NCBI GenBank assembly: GCA_009695195.1
Contig: SIBJ01000012.1
Location: forward strand, 1-64,000
Direction of reading: 5' to 3'
DNA from: Pedosphaera sp.
Lineage (GTDB): Bacteria; Verrucomicrobiota; Verrucomicrobiia; Limisphaerales; JADLHS01
Length of the DNA: 64,000 bases
This document shows, piece by piece, positions 4,894 to 24,742 of this stretch. Positions within the stretch are counted from its first letter, which is position 1; every line of letters begins with the position of its first letter. Position numbers and translations under genes: made by a program. Under the pieces are notes generated by a model, which ran no database searches, was not told the origin of the DNA, and worked only from the letters and a program-made list of their open reading frames with translations.

Positions 4894-5235
4894 ATGCAAG
4901 TCTCGCTGGCTGCGCCGTATCCCGGCACGGAACTTTACGAGCAGGCCCGACTCAACGGCTGGTTCGCGAAGAAAGACAAGGCCGCCCTGGTGGAAGGCGA
5001 CGGTTTCCAGCAAAGCGCGCTCGAATATCCCGGCCTGAGCAAGGACGAAATTTTCGAGAGCGTCGAACGGTTCTATCATCGTTACTACCTGCGCCCGAAA
5101 CCGATTCTCCGCATCATCAAGACCATGCTGGAGGACAAGGACGTCTGCGTCCGCCGCCTGCGCGAAGGCTACGAATTCTTCAAGAGCCTCAAGCAACGGC
5201 GCAGCGATCTGGCGGCGTCGCAAGCAGCGGCGTAA
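4894..5235 (+). pseudogene. hpnJ: 3' fragment of hopanoid radical-SAM gene hpnJ
   Basis: The reading frame from the ATG at 4894 starts MQVSLAAPYPGTELYEQA and continues with ALEYPGLSKDEIFESVERF and RRLREGYEFFKSL. This is the C-terminal third of HpnJ, the radical-SAM protein linked to hopanoid side-chain (cyclitol) formation. The N-terminal radical-SAM half with its CxxxCxxC cluster is missing; in its place is the tail of an IS91-type transposase in the opposite orientation. No other hopanoid gene is in the window. I read this as a truncated, non-functional remnant of a transposition or deletion event. The ATG is internal to the original gene. Confidence 0.75.
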
Positions 5236-5265
5236 AACCCCGTTCTTATTAAAGAATTCACCAGA

Positions 5266-5301
5266 TTCCAAACTTTGTCGCATATGCGACAAAATTTGGA
5301 A
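5266..5301. promoter_or_regulatory. 36-bp palindrome downstream of the PaaX-like gene (copy 1)
   Basis: Centred on GTCGCATATGCGAC with arms TTCCAAACTTT and AAATTTGGAA. The 36 bp are palindromic apart from one arm mismatch. It is the same sequence as the palindrome at 6128-6163 and starts 8 bp past the regulator's stop codon. Possible operator, or an inverted-repeat boundary of the module. Confidence 0.6.
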
Positions 5302-5309
5302 GTATTGGA

Positions 5310-6128
5310 TCAAGCGATAAACGTGTGCATTTGCTGTCCAGCGTCCCGCAACACTTCAACCCGTCGCCGCCACGCCTGCTGCCCCAAGTAATCGGGTGGT
5401 AGAATTCTGGCGGGAAGCAGTGGATCAATTGTCACAGCATCCAGCCACGCCTCGCGCTCCGCCGTAGCCCAGCGCAGCAACGCCTTTGCCGCCGCTTCAT
5501 TCCGCAATGCATCGCCCGGTCGTTCACCGAGGATTTTCAGATGTCGGGCATAGCGCTGGTTGATGCGCTCGAAGTCCCACGCCCCCGCGACAATTTCCGC
5601 AGCAGATTCTCCTGCACAAGGTCGCGCCTCCAACAGGAGAAGCGATTCCACATTTATCTTTCCACCTACGAGGATTCGTCGTTCATCTTCAAGCGAATCG
5701 GGCGTGATCCATACGCTATTTTGCAGGAAACCGAAGCCTTTATCGCGCAGGTAACGCCGTAGCCGGGCGCGGTGCGTGTTCTGCGTTGTGGGCACATCAA
5801 ACAACACGAGCCGCCAGCGACCGTCCCACTCCCGCGACCATCGGGCCTGCGGATCGCGTCCACCCAGCGCGTGCAGCCGCCCCTGCCAGGTCAGGCGATA
5901 CATTCGGTCGTCCGGCGCGGCTGGATTGCGCTCGATCAATTGCTTGCTCTCCAATACCGCTGTTTGTTTGAGCAGGCTATTGCGGTATGCCCAACTCTCG
6001 TACGAATCGGTCAGGTTGCGAAATGTGGGGCGCACCAATTTTTCAGCAGACCAAAGCAACAGGTTGATCAACTCTTCAGTTTTTGGTTTCACGTTTGAAG
6101 GATAAGAAATCAGCCCCAAAATTGCCAT
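5310..6128 (-). CDS. PaaX-like transcriptional regulator
   Basis: 272 residues. It fits the PaaX family: an N-terminal winged-helix-like region (SWAYRNSLLKQTAVLES, about 45-75), then the central hallmark WDGRWRLVLFDVP followed by RRYLRDKGFGFLQNSVWI (about 100-145), and the C-terminal DPLLPARILPPDYLGQQAW box. PaaX of enteric bacteria represses phenylacetate catabolism, but no catabolic genes are nearby. Here the gene lies 69 bp behind a DprA-like gene and a RecQ helicase on the same strand. A perfect 36-bp palindrome abuts its start and a near copy abuts its stop, which suggests autoregulation and perhaps control of the module. The ATG at 6128 has no good ribosome-binding site and the palindrome ends on its first base. 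A later start is possible. Confidence 0.75.
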   Translation of the reverse strand: MAILGLISYPSNVKPKTEELINLLLWSAEKLVRPTFRNLTDSYESWAYRNSLLKQTAVLESKQLIERNPAAPDDRMYRLTWQGRLHALGGRDPQARWSREWDGRWRLVLFDVPTTQNTHRARLRRYLRDKGFGFLQNSVWITPDSLEDERRILVGGKINVESLLLLEARPCAGESAAEIVAGAWDFERINQRYARHLKILGERPGDALRNEAAAKALLRWATAEREAWLDAVTIDPLLPARILPPDYLGQQAWRRRVEVLRDAGQQMHTFIA

Positions 6129-15873: not shown

Positions 15874-16099
15874 GCCGGTTCACGATAAAACCCTCACTGC
15901 CTTCGGTCGGAACGTCGCCCGTATCCGCGACAACCGCGGATTCTCCCAGGACAAACTCGCCGAGAAAGCCGATCTCGACCGCACTTACTTGAGCGGCATC
16001 GAGCGCGGAGTTCGCAATCCTGGAATCAAAGTTGTCATTCGTCTCGCTCGCGCGCTGGGCGTCACGGTGGACCAACTCTGCAAAGGAGTGGACGCGTGA
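15860..16099 (+). CDS. XRE-family regulator, controller-protein-like
   Basis: 79 residues (75 if the second Met at 15872 is used). A single Cro/CI-type helix-turn-helix fills the protein: GRNVARIRDNRGFSQDKLAEK, then LDRTYLSGIERGVRNPGIKVV and ARALGVTVDQLC. Length and sequence fit controller (C) proteins that delay restriction in restriction-modification loci, and the next gene is a DNA methyltransferase whose GTG start overlaps this stop (GTGA at 16096). A palindrome overlaps the start region, consistent with autoregulation. It heads the operon. Confidence 0.85.
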   Translation: MIRPMPVHDKTLTAFGRNVARIRDNRGFSQDKLAEKADLDRTYLSGIERGVRNPGIKVVIRLARALGVTVDQLCKGVDA

Positions 16100-17934
16100 A
16101 GCGACGGGGCAACCAATCCGCAGCGCTCCACGAACAGTCGCCGCCGTATCGTGTGGCTGGCGAGAATTCTCCCTCTCCTGGGGGAGAGGGCCGGGGTGAG
16201 GGCGGACGTTCCTCCAACCAACTAACCTGCCTTGATCTTTTCTGCGGCTGCGGTGGCTTCAGTTTGGGAATGCAGCGCGCCGGCTTCCGTGTGTTGGCGG
16301 CGATTGATTTCAACGACGAAGCCGTAACGACGTTCAAAGCGAATTTCTCCAAAGACACACTCGCACTCTGCAAAGACCTCACCAAGTTTCCGCCGGACAA
16401 GCTCGCTGCGAAACTTGGCGTCAACCATGTGGACGTCATCGTCGGCGGGCCGCCGTGTCAGGGTTACAGCACGGTGCGACAGGTGGACGCCGCCAACCAA
16501 GGCTCGCGTGTGAAACGCGACAAGCGCCGCTACCTCTTCCGCCCTTTCCTCGACTACGTCGCTGCGTTTCGCCCGCGCGTGTTCGTGATGGAAAACGTCA
16601 TCGGCATCCAGAGCGCCGCCAAGGGCAAGTTCTTCACGCTGGTCCAGGCTGATGCCCGCAAGCTCGGCTATCGCGTTCACACCCAGGTCGAAGAAGCTTG
16701 GAAACTCGGCGTGCCGCAGAAACGCCGCCGCCAGCTTGTGATTGGCGTGCGGAATGATTTGCCCGGCTATTTTTCCAGTGAACTTAAACCCGCACGTAGC
16801 AGCCGACGTGAGGAGGCTCAAAATTCTCCGGGCAAAAGTCAGAGCCTCGTTACCTCGTCTCCTACCGTGACCTTGTGGGACGCCATCGGCGACCTGCCGC
16901 CGCTCGCCGCCGGTGAAGGCGTCGAGGAACGCGATTATGATTTTGACCGGCGCAAACACTTTCTGGCCGCGCGAAACGAAACCGCGAAACACTATCTCAA
17001 GCAGGTTCTTGAAATTGACGACGCAACAAAACTGACCGCCCACCGCGCCCGACCGCACAATGATCGCGACCTGCGCGACTTCGCCCGGATTCACGAAGGC
17101 GAAACCGCCGACGACGCCATCGCGCGCGGCGAGAAGATGGAATTTCCCTACGACCGCAACGTGTTTCTTGACCGTTACACCCGCCAGCACCGCGAGCGCC
17201 TTTGCTCCACCATCGTTGCGCATCTCGCCAAGGACGGTTTGATGTTCATTCACCCGACGCAACTGCGCTCGCTCACACCCCGCGAAGCGGCGCGCGTGCA
17301 AACGTTTCCCGACTGGTTTCAATTCCCCGTGGCGCGGACGCATCAGTTTCGAATCATTGGCAACGCCGTGCCGCCGCTCGTGGCCGAGGCCGTTGGCTGT
17401 GAGATAAAGGAATTCTTGGGGAGCGCAGCCGCCCCGGCTGCATCGTCTCGCGCCCTCGCGGGACGAAACTCCGCGCTTCCGAGCGGGTTCGACGAGGCGT
17501 CGAACCCAGCGCCCGGGGGCGGGCGCGCTCCCCAGACACGCAAAGAAGCGGCCAGCGAATTGCAACGCCTTGCCGGACTCGACCGTCGCGCACTCCGCGC
17601 CCTGCCCACGCAACAATTCCTTCATGGCTGGCGCGCGTTGCTCTCCCTCTTTCCCGATCTGCATCCCGACAGCGCGCGCGACCACGGCAACCACATTGTG
17701 GAAATGAGCCCCGACCAACTCGCGCTGCCGGGCTTCGATGAACTCGTCTCCCGGCGCTACTCCCGCAGCGGCTGGCCCGTTGCGCTGGAGCTTATCGGCA
17801 ACGAAGCGTGCCGGCGATTTGATGCGGGCGAATTTACTCTATCAGATTTCCACTGTGTCGAAGCACAACGCGCGGGCCTTTGCTATGACACCGAAGGCCG
17901 AAGTCGTGCAGTTCTGATGGAGACGAAGACATGA
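16096..17934 (+). CDS. C5-cytosine DNA methyltransferase with extra C-terminal domain
   Basis: 612 residues, GTG start overlapping the XRE stop. Motifs of 5-methylcytosine methyltransferases in order: I LDLFCGCGGFSLGM, IV GGPPCQGYST (catalytic Cys), VI VFVMENVIGI, VIII VPQKRRRQLVIGV, IX LRSLTPREAARVQTFPD, X RIIGNAVPPLVAEAVG. All key residues are present. About 130 residues beyond motif X (LHGWRALLSLFPDLHPDSARDHGNHI ...) form an added region I do not recognise. Three palindromic elements lie inside the frame: one near residue 30 (SPSPGGEGRGEGG), one near 235-257 (target-recognition side) and one near 440-480 between motif X and the tail. None breaks the frame. It belongs to a defence operon with the GHKL ATPase, whose ATG overlaps this stop (ATGA). 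Confidence 0.88.
   Translation: MKRRGNQSAALHEQSPPYRVAGENSPSPGGEGRGEGGRSSNQLTCLDLFCGCGGFSLGMQRAGFRVLAAIDFNDEAVTTFKANFSKDTLALCKDLTKFPPDKLAAKLGVNHVDVIVGGPPCQGYSTVRQVDAANQGSRVKRDKRRYLFRPFLDYVAAFRPRVFVMENVIGIQSAAKGKFFTLVQADARKLGYRVHTQVEEAWKLGVPQKRRRQLVIGVRNDLPGYFSSELKPARSSRREEAQNSPGKSQSLVTSSPTVTLWDAIGDLPPLAAGEGVEERDYDFDRRKHFLAARNETAKHYLKQVLEIDDATKLTAHRARPHNDRDLRDFARIHEGETADDAIARGEKMEFPYDRNVFLDRYTRQHRERLCSTIVAHLAKDGLMFIHPTQLRSLTPREAARVQTFPDWFQFPVARTHQFRIIGNAVPPLVAEAVGCEIKEFLGSAAAPAASSRALAGRNSALPSGFDEASNPAPGGGRAPQTRKEAASELQRLAGLDRRALRALPTQQFLHGWRALLSLFPDLHPDSARDHGNHIVEMSPDQLALPGFDELVSRRYSRSGWPVALELIGNEACRRFDAGEFTLSDFHCVEAQRAGLCYDTEGRSRAVLMETKT
16171..16202. repeat. CCCTCTCC/GGAGAGGG hairpin inside the methyltransferase
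   Basis: CCCTCTCCTGGGGGAGAGGG followed by CCGGGGTGAGGG. It is one end of the inverted-repeat family seen complete at 60523-60707 and 62254-62438. In frame at the N-terminus of the methyltransferase. Confidence 0.6.
16796..16865. repeat. In-frame palindromic element (GTAGCAGCCGACG family), copy 1
   Basis: Arms of 23 bp (GTAGCAGCCGACGTGAGGAGG ... ending CTCGTCTCCTAC), 18 of 23 positions pairing, total 70 bp. Same family as 22581-22677 and 23647-23720. Encodes RSSRREEAQNSPGKSQ-like residues within the methyltransferase. Confidence 0.7.
17417..17534. repeat. In-frame palindromic element bounded by TGGGGAGCGC
   Basis: Terminal arms TGGGGAGCGC and GCGCTCCCCA are perfect, with an inner hairpin GGGTTCGACGAGGCGTCGAACCC-like stem. 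118 bp, Ala/Pro/Gly-rich when translated, between motif X and the C-terminal region of the methyltransferase. Confidence 0.6.
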
Positions 17935-19850
17935 ATCCTCAGTGGCACTTCAACCGTCGGCGGGCGTGCGACCGCATGAGGGACTCCGCCAACGATGCCT
18001 TCTTCACCGCTGAGAGCTTGGAGAATTTGAGTGAGGCACTCGTGCGCGAGGGCATCCAAAACTCGCTTGACGCAGCCCGGCGTGGCGCGGGCGGCGTGCG
18101 ACAGATCACGGTCAAGATTTGTTTTGTCCCGAACGCTCCGGCGGAAGCCCGACAGTTTCTCGCGGGCCATTTCGCTTCGGCACCGCAGAACTTCGAGCGT
18201 GGTCTGAACTGCGCCAGCTTGAACGCGCTGTTTGGTGACGACACCGGCTACCTAGTCTTCGAGGACTTCGGCACCAAAGGACTGACCGGCGACGTAAACG
18301 AGTGGCGGCTGGATCGTGCCGAGCAGAACGCGTTCTTCAGTTTCTTTCGCGCGGAAGGTCGCTCGTCCAAGAGCGGTGAAAACCTCGGACGCTGGGGCAT
18401 TGGTAAGCAGGTGTTTCCCACGGCCAGCCGGTTGCACGCCATGTTCGGCCTTACGGTGCGCGCGGACAATCCGGCCCGCGTGCTGATGGGTTCGGCTGTC
18501 GTGCGGACTCATTCCATCGGCGAACACGATTACCAGCCGGACGGTTGGTTCGGTTGCCGTGAACAAGACGACAATCCGGTGGAGCCAGTAATGGACCAGG
18601 AATTTATCAGTTCTTTTGAAAGGGTCTTTCGTCTCAAGCGTGGAAGCGAAACCGGCCTGTCCATCGTTGTGCCTTCTGTAGATGAGCGGGTGAATGCCGC
18701 TGACATCAAGCGCGGCATCGTTCGCAGTTTTTTCTGGCCTATTCTCCTCGGCGAACTGGTAGTTGATTTGGAAGCTCCTGGAGAGACTTTGCGGATTGAT
18801 GCCGAGACGTTGCCAACGCACCGCTCGCTTCTGCCAGCGCCGGAAGCCGCCGTAATTGAATTCGCAAGCTGGGCATCGACCGCGATACCAGCGGAAAGGA
18901 TAACGCTGCCCGAAACCGCCCGTCCGAGTTGGAAGGACTTCGGGGAGCAGTTACTTCCCGAATCCAAGCTGAACGAAATCCGCACGCGACTGGAAACGCA
19001 GCAGCGCGTAGAAATTCGAGTGCCGGTGCGTGTGCGCCCGAAGATTGAAGGCAGAGAAGATTGCATGTCTTTCTGCACCGTGTATGTCGCTTCATGCCGT
19101 GATGCGGGGCACAGGCCAATCTTTCTCCGAGACGGCATTGTCATCACCGATGTCCGTTGTCCTCAAATGTCGGGAAGCCGCTCAATCGTAGTCGTGGACA
19201 ACCCGCCGTTGGCAGGTTTGCTCGGCGACTCCGAGGGCGTCAACCACACGCAATGGCAGAAGGATTCTCCCAAGTTCCACAACAAATACGTTCGCGGGCC
19301 GGAAACCATCAAGTTCGTGACGCGGAGCGTTTACGAAATCCTTCAACGACTCCATGCGGCAGACACCAAGGGAGACCCAACACTGCTCCTTCACATCTTC
19401 TACTTGCCGACAGACGAGGGATCAATCGAGCCAAAGAAAAAACCGGAGAAGGAGAAAAAAGAGCCAGATATTCCACCGCCGCCACCGCCACCGCCACCAC
19501 CGCCGCAACCAAGGCGTTTTGAACTCCAATCAGTGAAGGGCGGATTCAGCCTGAGACCCGGCAACGCCCCCATAGAATCCTTTCCGCTAAAGGTTCGGAT
19601 TGAAGCGGGCTACGCTGTGCGTCGCGGGAACGCCATCAAGCGGTGGGCACAAGACGATTTTGCCTTCAATCGATTGCCGCTGCGACAGGACTACTCCAAC
19701 GGAGTTGTCGTTTTGCGCGCAGACGGCAATTCGTTAGAACTCGAAATCAGGAAGCCAGACTTCCAGTTTGCGATTTCCGGTTTCGATACGAAGCGTGACC
19801 TCGTGGTGCGGGCCAACGAACTCAAGGGAGAGAATGAAGCGGACGTTTAA
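17931..19850 (+). CDS. GHKL-type ATPase of the methyltransferase operon
   Basis: 639 residues. The N-terminal third carries the GHKL (Bergerat) ATP-binding motifs: N box VREGIQNSLDA (Glu40, Asn44, Asp47), G1-like VFEDFGTKGLTG near 110, and G2-like GRWGIGKQVFPTASRL near 150. The middle is unrecognised alpha/beta sequence. Near 505-530 lies a charged linker (KKKPEKEKKEP) and a run of 11 prolines, followed by a 110-residue C-terminal domain. GHKL ATPases related to MutL/MORC are known in bacterial restriction-modification islands (Iyer, Abhiman and Aravind, 2008, as I recall), where they are thought to be DNA-structure-dependent clamps. The start overlaps the methyltransferase stop (ATGA). The next gene starts 17 bp before this one ends. 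Confidence 0.75.
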   Translation: MNPQWHFNRRRACDRMRDSANDAFFTAESLENLSEALVREGIQNSLDAARRGAGGVRQITVKICFVPNAPAEARQFLAGHFASAPQNFERGLNCASLNALFGDDTGYLVFEDFGTKGLTGDVNEWRLDRAEQNAFFSFFRAEGRSSKSGENLGRWGIGKQVFPTASRLHAMFGLTVRADNPARVLMGSAVVRTHSIGEHDYQPDGWFGCREQDDNPVEPVMDQEFISSFERVFRLKRGSETGLSIVVPSVDERVNAADIKRGIVRSFFWPILLGELVVDLEAPGETLRIDAETLPTHRSLLPAPEAAVIEFASWASTAIPAERITLPETARPSWKDFGEQLLPESKLNEIRTRLETQQRVEIRVPVRVRPKIEGREDCMSFCTVYVASCRDAGHRPIFLRDGIVITDVRCPQMSGSRSIVVVDNPPLAGLLGDSEGVNHTQWQKDSPKFHNKYVRGPETIKFVTRSVYEILQRLHAADTKGDPTLLLHIFYLPTDEGSIEPKKKPEKEKKEPDIPPPPPPPPPPPQPRRFELQSVKGGFSLRPGNAPIESFPLKVRIEAGYAVRRGNAIKRWAQDDFAFNRLPLRQDYSNGVVVLRADGNSLELEIRKPDFQFAISGFDTKRDLVVRANELKGENEADV

Positions 19851-20607
19851 CTACACAGGCCGTCGCAAGATTGGGCGCAAGGATGTTTCCATCGCGCTGC
19901 GCCAAGAGACGGCGGTCTGGGTTTTCGATGCGGAGTTGCATTTGGCTGAACATAACTTCCCGCGCAACGCCGAGGTCTGGGTCGAAGCACACCGGCAGAA
20001 TCTTTGGATGCAGTGGTCGTGGGGCACAGTCTCCGCATTGCGCTCGCCTGCCGACCGCCGATTGCTGGAGTTCGACGTACCCGATGGGGTGCTCTTCCGC
20101 GTGCGCGTGGTGCAACCGGCCGGATTGGAGCATCACAAGCTGCTCGGCGAGGCGGACGGAATTTCGTTCGTGAAGGCGGGCGAGGCGGATGACCGGCGAC
20201 GGCATTTGCTGGTGCCGGTGCCCGACGCGCTTGACCAACAGCTTTGGAAACTGGATTTCGAGAGCGACCCGCCGCGCCTGCTGGTGAACAAGGACGCGAA
20301 GCCAAGCTGGAAGGAGATGGCGCGCTCGCCGCATTTCATCGCGCTGGTTTACCCCGAAGTCCTTCGTCGGATGCTGGCGCGAGCGCTGTTGGAGGAAGAG
20401 GGATGGACGGAGGATGACGAGGAAGGCGGCTGGTCGGCGGACTGGGTGCGCTTCGCCAAGAATCTCGGTGGGCTGGGGCCGGTGCCGGCGCTCGACCTGA
20501 AAACGGATCGTGAGAACTGGATTGAGGAAGCGGTGAGCGCGTTCTGCCGACGGCTTGAACTGCGCTCCACATGGGATCGAACGTGTGACGAGGAGGGCCG
20601 GCGGTGA
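19834..20607 (+). CDS. Unrecognised protein of the methyltransferase operon (A)
   Basis: 257 residues from the ATG at 19834, which has a good ribosome-binding site (AAGGGAG) inside the end of the GHKL gene. I do not recognise the family. The N-terminus (MKRTFNYTGRRKIGRKDVSI) is basic and followed by beta-rich sequence (VWVFDAELHLAEHNFP, VWVEAHRQNLWMQWSWG); an acidic, Trp-containing segment (EEEGWTEDDEEGGWSADW) lies near 190-205. No membrane segments and no obvious nuclease motif. Overlapping starts on both sides tie it to the GHKL ATPase and to the next gene, so the three products probably work together. Confidence 0.8.
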   Translation: MKRTFNYTGRRKIGRKDVSIALRQETAVWVFDAELHLAEHNFPRNAEVWVEAHRQNLWMQWSWGTVSALRSPADRRLLEFDVPDGVLFRVRVVQPAGLEHHKLLGEADGISFVKAGEADDRRRHLLVPVPDALDQQLWKLDFESDPPRLLVNKDAKPSWKEMARSPHFIALVYPEVLRRMLARALLEEEGWTEDDEEGGWSADWVRFAKNLGGLGPVPALDLKTDRENWIEEAVSAFCRRLELRSTWDRTCDEEGRR

Positions 20608-21329
20608 ATTTGCACCGCTTCAATCAGGACGGTGTGGTCGCATTCGCCTCGTATCGTGCCGGGCTGACGCTGAACCCAACGCTGCCGCCGCCCGTGGAGC
20701 TTCTGCAAGACCCCGCGCTCACCGAACTGATGCCCGGCGACGTGGACGTGCCGGCGCGCAGCTTCACCAATCGGCTGGAAACCGGGCGTTTTCTGAACGA
20801 GTTGCTTGACGCAGCGAAGGTTCGATTGCCGGAGCGGGACCAGGGCTTGTGGACGTGGCTAACACTTTTCTACTTCGATGAAGTATGCCCAGCGGACGGG
20901 AACGGACGGCGAAATCCCAAGGACGAAGCACGGCTAATCGCCCAAGTGGATAACTTCCAAAGATTCTATCGGCATCTGCTGCTGGGTCCTTATCTCATCG
21001 TGCGCGCGCATCACGAGCGCCCGGAACGCGCCATCGCATTTCTCTGCAAGCAACTCTGGGAGCCGGGCGAAATCGTGGAGCAACTGGCTTCGCGCAAAGA
21101 ACTCGTGACCAATCACGCGGTGGCAGAAGTGGCGACGAAACTTTATTACGATCCATCCACCGGTTCGTTCAAACGAGGAGCGGGTTCAAGCGTGAAAGGT
21201 GCGCCACGGCGATTGGCTGCGCTGCTGAATCAACTCGACGTGACCTATTATCTCTACGGCATGACCGCCGACGAATTGCTCGCGCTGCTGCCGAAAGAGT
21301 TTGATCGGTTTCGTACGAAGGTGGTTTGA
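20604..21329 (+). CDS. Unrecognised protein of the methyltransferase operon (B)
   Basis: 241 residues, GTG start overlapping the previous stop (GTGA). Helical, soluble, with WTWLTLFYFDEVCP, RFYRHLLLGPYLIVRAHH and YDPSTGSFKRGAG as its most distinctive stretches. It resembles proteins I have seen grouped as DUF6339, but I am not certain. The C-terminus (LLNQLDVTYYLYGMTADELLALLPKEF) is helical. It is the last gene of the overlapping set XRE-methyltransferase-GHKL-A-B. A 10-bp repeat begins immediately after the stop. Confidence 0.75.
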   Translation: MNLHRFNQDGVVAFASYRAGLTLNPTLPPPVELLQDPALTELMPGDVDVPARSFTNRLETGRFLNELLDAAKVRLPERDQGLWTWLTLFYFDEVCPADGNGRRNPKDEARLIAQVDNFQRFYRHLLLGPYLIVRAHHERPERAIAFLCKQLWEPGEIVEQLASRKELVTNHAVAEVATKLYYDPSTGSFKRGAGSSVKGAPRRLAALLNQLDVTYYLYGMTADELLALLPKEFDRFRTKVV

Positions 21330-21360
21330 ATCCGCGTCCATCCGTGTCCATCCGTGGTTA
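21330..21360. repeat. ATCCGTGTCC 10-bp repeat
   Basis: Three tandem units of the type (A)TCCGTGTCCA ending CCGTGGTTAA, starting right after the stop of the preceding gene. Confidence 0.65.
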
Positions 21361-21845
21361 AGAAAAAAGGCTGATGCTTTTCCAAAGCGAAGCGGCGAAC
21401 TCCCGACATGATTATTCTCCTGGCAAGCCGGGACTTTGGGCGTAGCCTGGACTGCATGAAAACGATCAGCCACGTTCCGAACTCCTTGCGAAGCGCTGGC
21501 CGGGAGTTGCGGCTCTCGCTCGCGCATCCGCCTTCGTCGGACTTCGGCGCGACAAGCCCCGGCCCTCTCCCATCGTCCATTCAGAGTTGAGAGTTGAGAG
21601 TTGAAGGTTGAAAGTTTAAGCGCAGCCGAGGCGGAGAGGGAGAAGCGCAATGGAGCGGGCTTTACGACCGGATGCACACGCATGAGCCGGATGAAATTGA
21701 ACGACGCCTGGCTCTTGCCGCCGATTACGGCGAGGGATTTGCGGAGTAAATCTTTTGCGCCCTTTGTGCTTTTTCCCCCGCCTTAATCCGATTCCGGCGC
21801 GGCAAAGTGGCAACTGAATCCGTGTTCATCCGTGGTTGAATTGAA
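21361..21845. other. Repeat-rich region with gene remnants, no intact gene
   Basis: About 480 bp. It holds a possible degenerate vsr start (21373-21415: GATGCTTTTCCAAAGCGAAG), part of the CCCCGGCCCTCTCCC repeat near 21557, a heptamer array (21583-21617) and the tail of an unknown reading frame ending LYDRMHTHEPDEIERRLAL then AADYGEGFAE and a stop near 21750. Another 10-bp repeat closes it at 21819-21839. Confidence 0.5.
21583..21617. repeat. AGAGTTG heptamer array
   Basis: Five tandem 7-bp units: AGAGTTG three times, then AAGGTTG and AAAGTTT. Confidence 0.8.
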
Positions 21846-21885
21846 ATGGCAGACGTCTTCACCAAAGCAAAGCGGTCGGAAGCGG
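21846..21885 (+). pseudogene. Broken 5' end of a vsr gene
   Basis: The first 12 codons (MADVFTKAKRSE) match the start of the intact vsr gene at 22435 (MPDVFTKAKRSE), with several base differences. The frame then runs into heptamer-like GCGGAGCGCGGAACTCGG sequence and no Vsr residues follow. It is preceded by the same 10-bp repeat that follows the intact gene. Confidence 0.65.
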
Positions 21886-21932
21886 TTCAAGTGCGGAGCG
21901 CGGAACTCGGAACGCGGAGTTGCTGGTGCGGT

Positions 21933-22163
21933 TCAGAATTTCCCGAAGTAGAATTGGTCGCGGGTGATGCCGAGGTCTTCGACGATGTCGGCAATGATGC
22001 CGCGTGGCACATCGCCGGGATGCCACGAAAAGGTGATGAGGCGGTCCGGGCGGAAGGGATTCGAGTAGTGCCGGTGGCTGCCGGTGGAGCGTTCATGCAC
22101 ACAACCGATCTCACGCAGGCGACGGTCAAGCTGTCGGCAGTTCCAAGAGGGGAATTTGCCCAC
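21933..22163 (-). CDS. HicA-type toxin
   Basis: 76 residues, GTG start 3 bp after the stop of the HicB-like gene. HicA proteins are small double-stranded-RNA-binding-fold mRNA endonucleases. Matching features: an N-terminal WNCRQLDRRLREIGC helix, the GSHRHYSNP motif that carries the catalytic His, a beta strand ending WHPGD, and the C-terminal GIIADIVEDLGITRDQFYF. The length is normal for the family. The antitoxin-first gene order is common in HicBA loci. It lies inside the methyltransferase/Vsr block, on the opposite strand, between a broken and an intact vsr start. Confidence 0.8.
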   Translation of the reverse strand: MGKFPSWNCRQLDRRLREIGCVHERSTGSHRHYSNPFRPDRLITFSWHPGDVPRGIIADIVEDLGITRDQFYFGKF

Positions 22164-22166
22164 AGG

Positions 22167-22385
22167 TCAGGCGGCGAGAACGAACTTGTCGCGGAAGGCG
22201 GCGGGGATGGCGCGTCCGGTTTCGAGCAGCGCTTCCAGATGGGACTTGGCGGCCTGTTGAAAGCGGAGCGTGGCTTCGCCCCGGTCGCGCCCGTGCGCGT
22301 GGCAACCGGGCAGCAGCGCCGATCTGGCGATCCACACGCCGTCTTCATCCTGACGAAGTTGAACTTTCGAGAGTGGAACGATCAT
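22167..22385 (-). CDS. HicB-type antitoxin
   Basis: 72 residues. The pattern is that of the short HicB fold: VQLRQDEDGVWIARSALLPGC, then HGRDRGEATLRFQQAAKSHLEAL and ETGRAIPAAF. It lacks a separate DNA-binding domain, as many short HicB proteins do. The ATG at 22385 is followed by MIVPLSKVQ; longer in-frame extensions have no family resemblance. It would neutralise the HicA-like product encoded 3 bp downstream. Confidence 0.75.
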   Translation of the reverse strand: MIVPLSKVQLRQDEDGVWIARSALLPGCHAHGRDRGEATLRFQQAAKSHLEALLETGRAIPAAFRDKFVLAA

Positions 22386-22434
22386 AGTGGGCGTATTGTA
22401 ACCCGGCGTGCTTCCGGCGTAAAGAGGGCGTTTG

Positions 22435-23034
22435 ATGCCTGACGTTTTCACCAAGGCGAAGCGGTCGGAAGTGATGTCGCGGATCCGCGGGAGGGGAAAC
22501 AAAGCGACGGAACTGGCGCTGGCGCGGGTGTTGCGCGTGAATGGAATCACGGGATGGAGGAGGCAGGTCAAACTGATCATTTGTAGGAGACGACGTGAGG
22601 GGGCTCATTCTAAAAATCCGCGGCCCTTGCTCCACGATCAAAAATCAGTCAAAGCCTCCTCACGTCGTCTCCTACAAGTGCAGGTGGATTTTGTTTTTCA
22701 AAAACTCAAACTCGCACTCTTCGTGGACGGTTGTTTCTGGCACGGCTGTCCGCAGCACGCGACGAAGCCGAAGAACAATCGCGCGTTCTGGCGGCGCAAA
22801 CTTTTGTCGAACAAGAAGCGGGATGCGCTCGTGACGCGGACGTTGCGGCGCGCGGGTTGGCGCGTGTTGCGCATCTGGGAGCACGAACTGGTGCGGACAA
22901 GGAGGAAACATCCAACATCCAACGCGGACAGACTGGTGCGGCGGATCCAGCGGGCGTTGGGTTGTGACCAAGCTCTCCGTTCGCGTGGTTCGCGGTTTTG
23001 GAATCCGTGTTCATCCGTGTCCATCCGTGGTTAA
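22435..23034 (+). CDS. vsr: Very-short-patch repair endonuclease (Vsr) with in-frame palindromic insert
   Basis: 199 residues, longer than the usual 140-150. Vsr nicks T:G mismatches that arise where 5-methylcytosine deaminates, so it fits a cytosine-methyltransferase locus. Recognisable parts: DVFTKAKRSEVMSRIRGRGNK, ATELALARVL, then after an insert VDFVFQKLKLALFVDGCFWHGCP and LRRAGWRVLRIWEHEL. The Asp in VDFVF is the expected catalytic residue. About 32 residues encoded by a 97-bp inverted repeat (22581-22677) sit just before it, replacing the usual short loop. The last ten residues and the stop come from the 10-bp repeat. Function may be retained or lost. The intended Met may be 22435 (22432 also possible). 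Confidence 0.8.
   Translation: MPDVFTKAKRSEVMSRIRGRGNKATELALARVLRVNGITGWRRQVKLIICRRRREGAHSKNPRPLLHDQKSVKASSRRLLQVQVDFVFQKLKLALFVDGCFWHGCPQHATKPKNNRAFWRRKLLSNKKRDALVTRTLRRAGWRVLRIWEHELVRTRRKHPTSNADRLVRRIQRALGCDQALRSRGSRFWNPCSSVSIRG
22581..22677. repeat. In-frame palindromic element (GTAGGAGACGACG family), copy 2
   Basis: 26-bp arms beginning TTGTAGGAGACGACGTGAGG, nearly perfectly inverted at 22652-22677. 97 bp. Interrupts the vsr reading frame without a stop. Confidence 0.85.
23001..23033. repeat. ATCCGTGTCC 10-bp repeat forming the vsr 3' end
   Basis: Three units ATCCGTGTTC, ATCCGTGTCC, ATCCGTGGTT. The final TTAA gives vsr its TAA stop. Confidence 0.75.
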
Positions 23035-23038
23035 AAAA

Positions 23039-24742
23039 TCAGTTCTTCAACTGCGCGCCATTTTGCACCGCGTAGAGATGCGTCATGGTCGCGACGTAGA
23101 GCACGCCGTTGGCCGCCGTCGTCGTGGCGCTGATGGGGGTGACGAGTTCCATTTCGGAGAGGACTTTCTTTTCCTTGCCCGCGGCGAACACGTAAAAATT
23201 TCCGCTCCGCGTGCCGAGATAAACTTTTCCGTCGGCCACGAGTGGCGAGGCCCAGACTTCGCCTTGAATCGCGTGCGTCCAGTGCGGCTTGCCGGTCCGC
23301 GCGTCCACGCAGTGAAACGTGCGGCCGCAATCCGCGATGAACACCAGTCCGTTGTGGACCGCCGGCGTGGACATGACGTGCTTCTCCAGCGGATACGACC
23401 ACACGAGGCTGTTCGTGGTGATGTCGCCGGTCTTCGTGGCGTCAAGGCACTTGAGCCACGCTTCATTCTTGCCCCACCAGATATCGCCGCCGCCCGCGAC
23501 GTAAAGGCGGTCGGCGACGAACGCGGGCATTCCGTAAAGGTTGCTGGGGCCTTCGCGGCGGTTGCTGTTGAATTTGTGAACATCCGTCTTCGGCGCGGTC
23601 GGATCGAAGTCGAATTGAAAAACTTTTTTCAACGTCGCGACAGCGTTCGTAGCCGCCGACGTGAGGAGGCGGTCTTTGAACGTGGTCGGTCGGTCCGCCT
23701 CGTCACCTCGGCGGCTACGAAACGGTTCGAAAGCGTAAACCACTCCGTTCCCGCCGCAGAAAAAAATCAACTCCCGGCCGTTCACCTTCCCCAGCGAGGG
23801 CGACGCCCAGGTGTTGTGAAAAACATTCAGCGCGATGTGTTCGTCGTCGCGCGCGAGAAGTTTGCCAGTGGTCTTGTCGAGCACGACGAGGCTCGGTGCG
23901 TCGGGCGCGCGCACGCGTTTGTGGGTGTTGTCCACGCCCGAGGCGGTGTTCAAATAAAGTTGGTCGCCGTGAATGAGAATCGAACTGTGCGCGGCATCGT
24001 GCGGCCAGATGCCCGCATCGGAAACCAGATCGAACTTCCAGAGAATGTCCGCGTCCAGCGGGCCGGGTGCGAGAAGCTTTCCGTCGGCGGGCGGCCGCAA
24101 TGGTTCCGGTCGCGTCTCCGCGCCAACCTCGCGGCGCGGCGGCGAACCGGCGGGCGCGGGCGAAGTCATGTACGCGGCCTCATCGCGGAACGGTCCGTCG
24201 TTGCCGTCAGCCAGACCTTTCACGTCGAGGCAGAGTACGGCGCCGCGATTGTCCACGAGATAAACGCGGCCCGCCCCGATGCCCTTGTCGGGGTCGCCTT
24301 CAACGGTGGCGGTCGAGGACATGCCCATGTTCGGCCAGTCCATGTAGGCGTCCTCGTCGCGTTTGGGCACGACGAGTTGCCAGAGGAGGCGGCCAGTTTT
24401 TTCGTCGAAGCACATGAACACACCGCGATCGCCCTGATGCTTGGGGTCGCGCGGCTCGTTGTTGTTCGTGCCGATGAAGACGCGTCCGCCCGCGACGATG
24501 GGCGTGGAATGATTCTGTGAGCCGAGCTTCGCAACCCACTTGATGTTCTTCCCCGTCGCCGGATCAAATGAGTCGGGCAACCCGCGCTCCGCCGAAACCA
24601 TGTTGCGCGACCATGCCTGTCCCCACTGCGGTTGGTCGGCGGCGAGCACGCAAGGATGCCAGGCTCCCGCAGCCAGACCGGCGCACAAGAGCGAACCCAG
24701 AAAAGTTTTTCCGAACGGTGACAACACCAAAGGGAATCCCAA
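23039..24742 (-). CDS. Secreted PQQ-type beta-propeller protein
   Basis: 567 residues, start TTG 24742 or the in-frame GTG at 24727. The N-terminus is a signal peptide (FLGSLLCAGLAAGAWHPCVLA). The body consists of PQQ-like propeller blades: STPIVAGGRVFIGTNN, GRVYLVDNRGAVLCLDVKG, TPAVHNGLVFIADCGRTFHCVD, ASPLVADGKVYLGTRSGNFYVFAAG. Such proteins in this phylum are often annotated as outer-membrane assembly BamB-like or pyrrolo-quinoline repeat proteins, usually without enzyme activity. A 74-bp palindromic element (23647-23720) lies in frame between two blades and encodes RSRRGDEADRP and RLLTSAATN. The gene converges with vsr and its stop is 4 bp from the vsr stop. Confidence 0.85.
   Translation of the reverse strand: MGFPLVLSPFGKTFLGSLLCAGLAAGAWHPCVLAADQPQWGQAWSRNMVSAERGLPDSFDPATGKNIKWVAKLGSQNHSTPIVAGGRVFIGTNNNEPRDPKHQGDRGVFMCFDEKTGRLLWQLVVPKRDEDAYMDWPNMGMSSTATVEGDPDKGIGAGRVYLVDNRGAVLCLDVKGLADGNDGPFRDEAAYMTSPAPAGSPPRREVGAETRPEPLRPPADGKLLAPGPLDADILWKFDLVSDAGIWPHDAAHSSILIHGDQLYLNTASGVDNTHKRVRAPDAPSLVVLDKTTGKLLARDDEHIALNVFHNTWASPSLGKVNGRELIFFCGGNGVVYAFEPFRSRRGDEADRPTTFKDRLLTSAATNAVATLKKVFQFDFDPTAPKTDVHKFNSNRREGPSNLYGMPAFVADRLYVAGGGDIWWGKNEAWLKCLDATKTGDITTNSLVWSYPLEKHVMSTPAVHNGLVFIADCGRTFHCVDARTGKPHWTHAIQGEVWASPLVADGKVYLGTRSGNFYVFAAGKEKKVLSEMELVTPISATTTAANGVLYVATMTHLYAVQNGAQLKN
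23647..23720. repeat. In-frame palindromic element (GTAGCCGCCGACG family), copy 3
   Basis: Arms TCGTAGCCGCCGACGTGAGG ... and CTCGTCACCTCGGCGGCTAC on the other side. 74 bp. Same family as copies 1 and 2. Confidence 0.8.

Follow-up and report, generated by a model that had tools for sequence, protein, structure and literature searches.

Three in-frame palindromes of a Pedosphaera contig are very probably head-to-head dimers of a GTAG REP with a cognate RAYT transposase

In the window, meaning the whole stretch of 64,000 nucleotides of Pedosphaera sp. contig SIBJ01000012.1 that was analysed, a GTAG...CTAC palindrome is found inside each of three different genes, all of which stay open across it. 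This raises the question of what the palindromes are and how three proteins came to encode them. The first (16796–16865, plus strand, 70 bp) lies within the gene for a C5-cytosine DNA methyltransferase of 612 amino acids (16096–17934, plus strand; PF00145, 7e-62; TIGR00675). The second (22583–22675, plus strand, 93 bp) lies within the gene for a vsr mismatch endonuclease of 200 amino acids (22435–23034, plus strand; PF03852, 7e-15; TIGR00632 under the cut-off), in the loop immediately preceding the conserved DFVF motif. The third (23649–23718, minus strand, 70 bp, stem class CGCC/GGCG) lies in a linker of a PQQ_2/BamB-like beta-propeller protein of 567 amino acids (23039–24742, minus strand). 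We are highly confident that all three are head-to-head (HH) dimers of a GTAG repetitive extragenic palindrome (REP), that is, non-autonomous mobile DNA of the type known as REPIN (REP doublet forming hairpins) or BIME (bacterial interspersed mosaic element), probably moved by a cognate REP-associated tyrosine transposase (RAYT).

That one palindrome family occupies the three genes with the frames left open had been claimed in the original prediction and was borne out by translation of the three open reading frames (ORFs). The limits given there held for the methyltransferase element at 70 bp, while the vsr and PQQ elements were shortened from 97 to 93 bp and from 74 to 70 bp, as TT/AA and TC/GA, respectively, had been added to them. 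The peptides quoted were correct and are encoded as RSSRREEA...SLVTSSPT in the methyltransferase, CRRRREGA...SSRRLLQ in vsr and RSRRGDEA...LLTSAAT in the PQQ protein. Their similarity arises from a reading frame (NGT-AGN) that is common to all three window elements.

Each arm follows the design GTAG-N-stem4-GA-C-GTNA-G-GA-stem4', in which a variable, covarying stem of 4–5 bp is followed by a tandem GA/GA mismatch, one C-G pair that is frequently exchanged for G-C and a GTNA loop. Stems of the classes GCAC/GTGC, AGAC/GTCT, CGAC/GTCG, AGCC/GGCT, CGCC/GGCG and ACAC/GTGT were seen; the methyltransferase element combines an AGCC/GGCT left arm with an AGAC/GGCT right arm bearing the loop variant GA-G-GTAA-C-GA. 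Covariation was evaluated in 60 distinct units, comprising 56 from the genome of the window (G000), picked partly on pairing, and 4 fully paired units from REPtrons of relatives. In this set 94.3% of the cells were paired compared to 64.1% in shuffled sets, and the covariation score was 0.662 compared to 0.153, with none of 500 shuffles as high and slid versions reaching at most 0.113. Covariation was present at all five stem pairs. When units were instead selected on the loop and GTAG alone, 88% of the stem cells were paired against a shuffled maximum of 71%. The GTAG tag was itself required in the pattern searches, and units located by the loop alone are listed with a GTAG at most 10 bases away.

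The genome (4.46 Mb in 162 contigs, roughly 91% complete) contains many further copies. The genome-wide collection that the original prediction had proposed returned 117 exact matches to GTAGN{0,4}CGACGTNAGGAG, compared to 0 for the reversed pattern. A structural scan of approximately 686 kb fetched around the copies, the sample that also underlies the dimer census and the frame statistic below, returned 145 units and 60 HH dimers; the reversed sequence gave 0. Dimer lengths cluster at 55–56 bp for the CGAC/GCAC type and at 64–75 bp for the other types, the spacers are mostly unrelated and differ in nearly every copy, and two pyrimidines directly precede GTAG in most dimers. The spacers of some dimers (L088:2303–2395 and L045:5754–5856) consist of short iterons such as ACTCCGC. 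Matching flanks were absent in 58 of the 60 dimers, the same as in shuffled pairs, and a miniature inverted-repeat transposable element moved by a DDE transposase was rejected for want of target-site duplications. Outside this genome, the exact narrower pattern was present in 34 of 57 relatives, most of them fragmentary assemblies, with a maximum of 168 copies (G048). Among the matches listed in a scan of named genomes, nearly all were Verrucomicrobia records, including Limisphaerales and Pedosphaera, along with one Opitutaceae bin and one Phragmitibacter bin; a few listed bins go under Akkermansia, Klebsiella or Proteobacteria and are probably environmental bins with wrong labels.

A transposase that could account for this dispersal is still encoded in the genome. 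Matches to Y1_Tnp (PF01797) were considered and rejected as the cognate RAYT, as these RAYT-like genes lack this REP at their flanks, and in relatives the RAYTs of the groups found through PF01797 bear other GTAG REPs. The cognate RAYT was missed by the Pfam search and found by a profile built from a related RAYT-like gene, which returned two more RAYT genes in the genome, both adjoining this GTAG REP. One (L076; contig C61, ORF 5182–5763) encodes 193 amino acids with the motifs MPDHLHLVW and YILENP, providing the HUH motif and the catalytic tyrosine, and is bracketed by REP dimers at 5090–5173 and 5766–5848, an arrangement known as a REPtron. The other (L065; contig C43), a homologue, lies inside a REP array; two REP dimers (1345–1409 and 1417–1471) stand in frame within its own coding sequence. 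Homologues in about 15 relatives are closely flanked by the same REP design (L246–L257 and L276–L280), with 0 in the control. A related, fully paired hairpin lies near a further RAYT copy in the genome of the window (L275), fully paired relatives of the REP unit accompany the RAYT fragments L259 and L260, the homologue L281 has a single unit at the match threshold, and no such unit was found near the homologue L258. Furthermore, the REP class follows the RAYT clade: AGCC, AGAC and CGCC units carry the GA/GA mismatch, and two further groups have fully paired hairpins. Mismatched and Watson–Crick hairpin types cluster on the RAYT tree, the clustering of the GA label being matched by none of 500 shuffles. 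By analogy with E. coli TnpA-REP, we infer that this RAYT, a Y1/HUH transposase, would be what mobilises the GTAG REPs.

The surroundings of these transposase genes show two further features. REPtrons of the L076 clade tend to lie immediately downstream of a gene (tyrS, a ubiD-like gene, a dehydrogenase gene and others) and are bordered by a copy of 80–180 bp, 85–97% identical, of the 3' end of that gene. Such copies lie at 4960–5084, 5852–5976 and 6496–6627 of L076 and also at L251, L249, L276, L278, L280, L281 and L247, and the tyrS 3' end is found in four copies in succession. Other RAYT clades of the same order (L226, L227, L231, L234, L237, L243 and L244) are accompanied by different, fully paired GTAG REPs, for example GTAGCGCAGACTTCCAGTCTGC, and several REP/RAYT systems coexist in the order.

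Comparison with orthologues shows how the three genes of the window were altered. The region that spans 144 bp in the methyltransferase gene is 90 bp long in an orthologue that is 86% identical (L166), the 147 bp of vsr correspond to 48 bp in L144–L146 and others, and the 135 bp of the PQQ gene correspond to 81 bp in L106, L109 and L115. The original prediction had singled out insert-free orthologues with the same amino acids as the observation that would count against insertion; the residues are absent from the orthologues named, and the elements are therefore insertions. That the palindromes are instead native parts of the proteins, as the open frames and the otherwise intact products might suggest, is barely conceivable given these shorter orthologues and the presence of the same DNA more than 100 times in the genome. 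A by-eye comparison of the spacers with the empty methyltransferase and PQQ sites gave no resemblance, and the spacers were rejected as captured target sequence.

Whether frames are kept more often than expected by chance was evaluated with a home-made hexamer coding score applied on both sides of each dimer, with the requirement that the ORF continues; the vsr dimer, where the score is too weak, was counted by its reading frame and orthologues. Sixteen of the 60 dimers are in frame within continuing ORFs, no clear frame shift was found, and the remaining dimers look intergenic or at gene ends by coding score alone. At a chance of 1/3 each, 16 of 16 in frame corresponds to p = 2e-8, rising to 8e-7 when one case is conceded. 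A candidate frame-shifting insertion (L051) was rejected, as the upstream ORF stops just past the element, marking the end of the gene, and the dimers at L068, L080 and L082 provide the TAG stop of the upstream ORF and do not lie inside a gene. As the length of 14 of the 16 in-frame elements is not divisible by three, it is net change and survival, and not the length of the element, that preserve the frame. Within the codon, the G of GTAG takes position 1 or 2 in a ratio of 8:8 and never position 3, where TAG would be read as a stop. Besides the genes of the window, hosts include uvrA (two dimers), ftsK, hrpB and genes for an Fe-S/CCG protein, an antiporter-type NADH dehydrogenase subunit, a phosphodiesterase, an MMPL/acyltransferase protein and a redoxin protein, and the sites are mostly inter-domain linkers. 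Intragenic insertions would then persist only under three conditions, namely that the frame is preserved by the net change, that translation does not meet GTAG as a stop and that the linker hit is a tolerant one; the pattern is shown statistically, and selection is the step that we propose to explain it.

The outcome resembles that of the Rickettsia palindromic elements (RPE), with which the original prediction had compared the family, in that palindromes are read in frame in unrelated genes. The likeness holds for this outcome and fails for the family, since the GTAG tag, the covarying hairpin with its 4–5 bp stem, the HH dimers and the flanking RAYT are features of REP/REPIN systems. It is very improbable that the elements form a separate, RPE-type family specialised for in-frame insertion, as most copies (all but the 16 of 60) are not in frame in a gene and RPE-4 and RPE-6 are treated in PMC3733652 as CGTC-tagged repeats without a transposase gene.

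Selection on the encoded peptides, for instance as a charged linker or as a localisation or regulatory tag, must also be weighed. Between the hrpB genes of genomes G011 and G008 (L426/L427), the arms are identical at 44 of 46 positions compared to 57% of fourfold sites (binomial 4e-9, for one chosen pair), and the spacers at 16 of 24 positions after alignment. Arm conservation of this kind would be expected under such selection, yet it also fits re-copying or conversion, and the stem class differs between orthologues. Moreover, the two stop-free frames, NGT-AGN and GTA-GNN, are used 8:8 and give unrelated peptides (RSSRREEA or VAADVRR types), so that a preference for one reading frame or peptide was rejected, and spacers differ from copy to copy. 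We therefore consider selection on the peptides improbable; as both open frames are used equally and the spacers vary, the added peptides appear to be by-products of REP insertion.

The same linkers are occupied in related genomes, with changing contents. In hrpB, one and the same codon is occupied by a REP dimer of 70 bp in the genome of the window, G001, G008 and G011, in three stem types; at this place G002 has another GTAG REP dimer, heptamer iterons are found in G005, G007 and G010 and a CCCTCACCCC-type palindrome in G003, and the place is empty in several genomes outside the family. The vsr linker holds REP dimers in G000, G005 and G008, repeats of heptamer or other type stand there in other genera, and part of the spacer is common to the inserts of G000 and G008 (GATYAAAA(A)TCAGTCA). 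The stem class likewise changes between genomes at the PQQ and uvrA sites; in uvrA of G008 no intact GTAG...CTAC element was found. The unrelated in-frame repeats in these linkers (vsr loci L138–L142, L148, L151 and L155; hrpB loci L428–L430, L441 and L442) are 7-base iterons (GAGTTGA, GTGACGG, ACTCCGC, AAATCCG and CATTCGC), another GTAG REP or a CCCTCACCCC...GGGTGAGGG palindrome, and those tested are dispersed in their genomes.

These observations suggest, tentatively, that the linkers of HrpB, Vsr, the PQQ protein and UvrA are long-lived in-frame slots whose contents are exchanged in place at the same codon. An ancestral REP insertion would stay, and RAYT-mediated replacement, gene conversion or re-insertion would change its contents to a different REP stem class, a different GTAG REP, heptamer iterons or a CCCTCACCCC-type palindrome with the frame always kept. 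If so, continued copying, and not selection on the protein, would be what renews the arms at old orthologous sites. Independent recent insertions in each lineage, with neither inheritance nor exchange, are a somewhat stronger possibility, still short of an even chance, and are compatible with REP mobility. The differing stem classes at the same sites in hrpB, vsr, PQQ and uvrA and the repeats of other families in the same linkers speak for them; the element at one hrpB codon in four genomes and the partly common vsr spacer speak against them.

Several points weigh against the identification of the elements as REP dimers moved by this RAYT. The RAYT matches NCBIfam REP_Tyr_transpos (NF047646) at 1.8e-13 with 50.6 bits, under the curated cut-off of 80, and has no Pfam match; its function is therefore read from motifs and context. 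The inserts vary in size between orthologous sites and a clean insertion is for this reason not shown: 16 native bp are replaced in the methyltransferase and PQQ genes (−16 bp) as opposed to extra bases in hrpB (+14), so that there is no single fixed target change and a fixed length of replacement is not supported. The frame test leans on the home-made score and on regions fetched around copies, and the assembly is fragmented and incomplete, as given above.

Other repeats and genes were noted in the window. At 16168–16208 the N-terminal region of the methyltransferase ORF contains a CCCTCTCC...GGGAGAGGGCCGGGGTGAGGG palindrome encoding ENSPSPGGEGRGEGG, and similar peptides occur elsewhere in the genome. 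The GAGTTGA heptamer array at 21583–21604 belongs to a dispersed iteron, of which the genome has a handful of exact copies. Between the methyltransferase and vsr genes (17931–21329) lie three ORFs without a Pfam match, the first of which matches the PADLOC candidate PDC-M33A (9e-15), and this region is possibly a defence cassette.

The closest known counterpart is found in Opitutus terrae, also of the Verrucomicrobia, for which Di Nocera et al. 2013 (PMC3733652) describe the largest number of intragenic GTAG REPs, including in-frame copies and double insertions in both uvrA genes, together with HH dimers with variable spacers and REPtrons. The present REPs share with these the tag, the hairpin, the HH dimers, in-frame genic sites, more than one uvrA insertion and the RAYT association. 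As this precedent is published, the phenomenon is known and the present REPs are probably a new family of it, which may yet coincide with one of the O. terrae families. Compared with that study, this analysis contributes the cognate RAYT, the stem covariation and the insert-free orthologues for one family across many genera. What looks new is that orthologous protein linkers are filled with different palindromes in related species, and exchangeable in-frame slots are tentatively suggested by it. As these linkers are open to comparison between genera, they form a natural test series for RAYT recognition of bulged versus fully paired hairpins, for in-place re-copying of REPs and for protein segments born from mobile DNA. 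With RPE the family shares in-frame insertion in many unrelated ORFs; it differs from them in its GTAG ends and RAYT partner, as opposed to the CGTC tag of RPE-4 and RPE-6 with no known transposase in the account cited above. The REPIN/RAYT systems of Pseudomonas and E. coli (Bertels and Rainey; Ton-Hoang; PMC8049555, PMC8266576) likewise have an inverted REP pair with a diverse spacer, a RAYT with HUH and tyrosine motifs and, in E. coli REPs, an irregular stem. RAYTs are described elsewhere as single-copy, vertically inherited and immobile, whereas here several RAYTs occur per genome, and a single RAYT subfamily includes both bulged and fully paired REPs. REPIN models take genic insertion as gene-destroying (PMC8049555); here, a sizeable share of the copies stands in frame in genes, and insertions of a REP system whose RAYT has been identified recur in uvrA, ftsK, hrpB and similar genes and are tolerated there.

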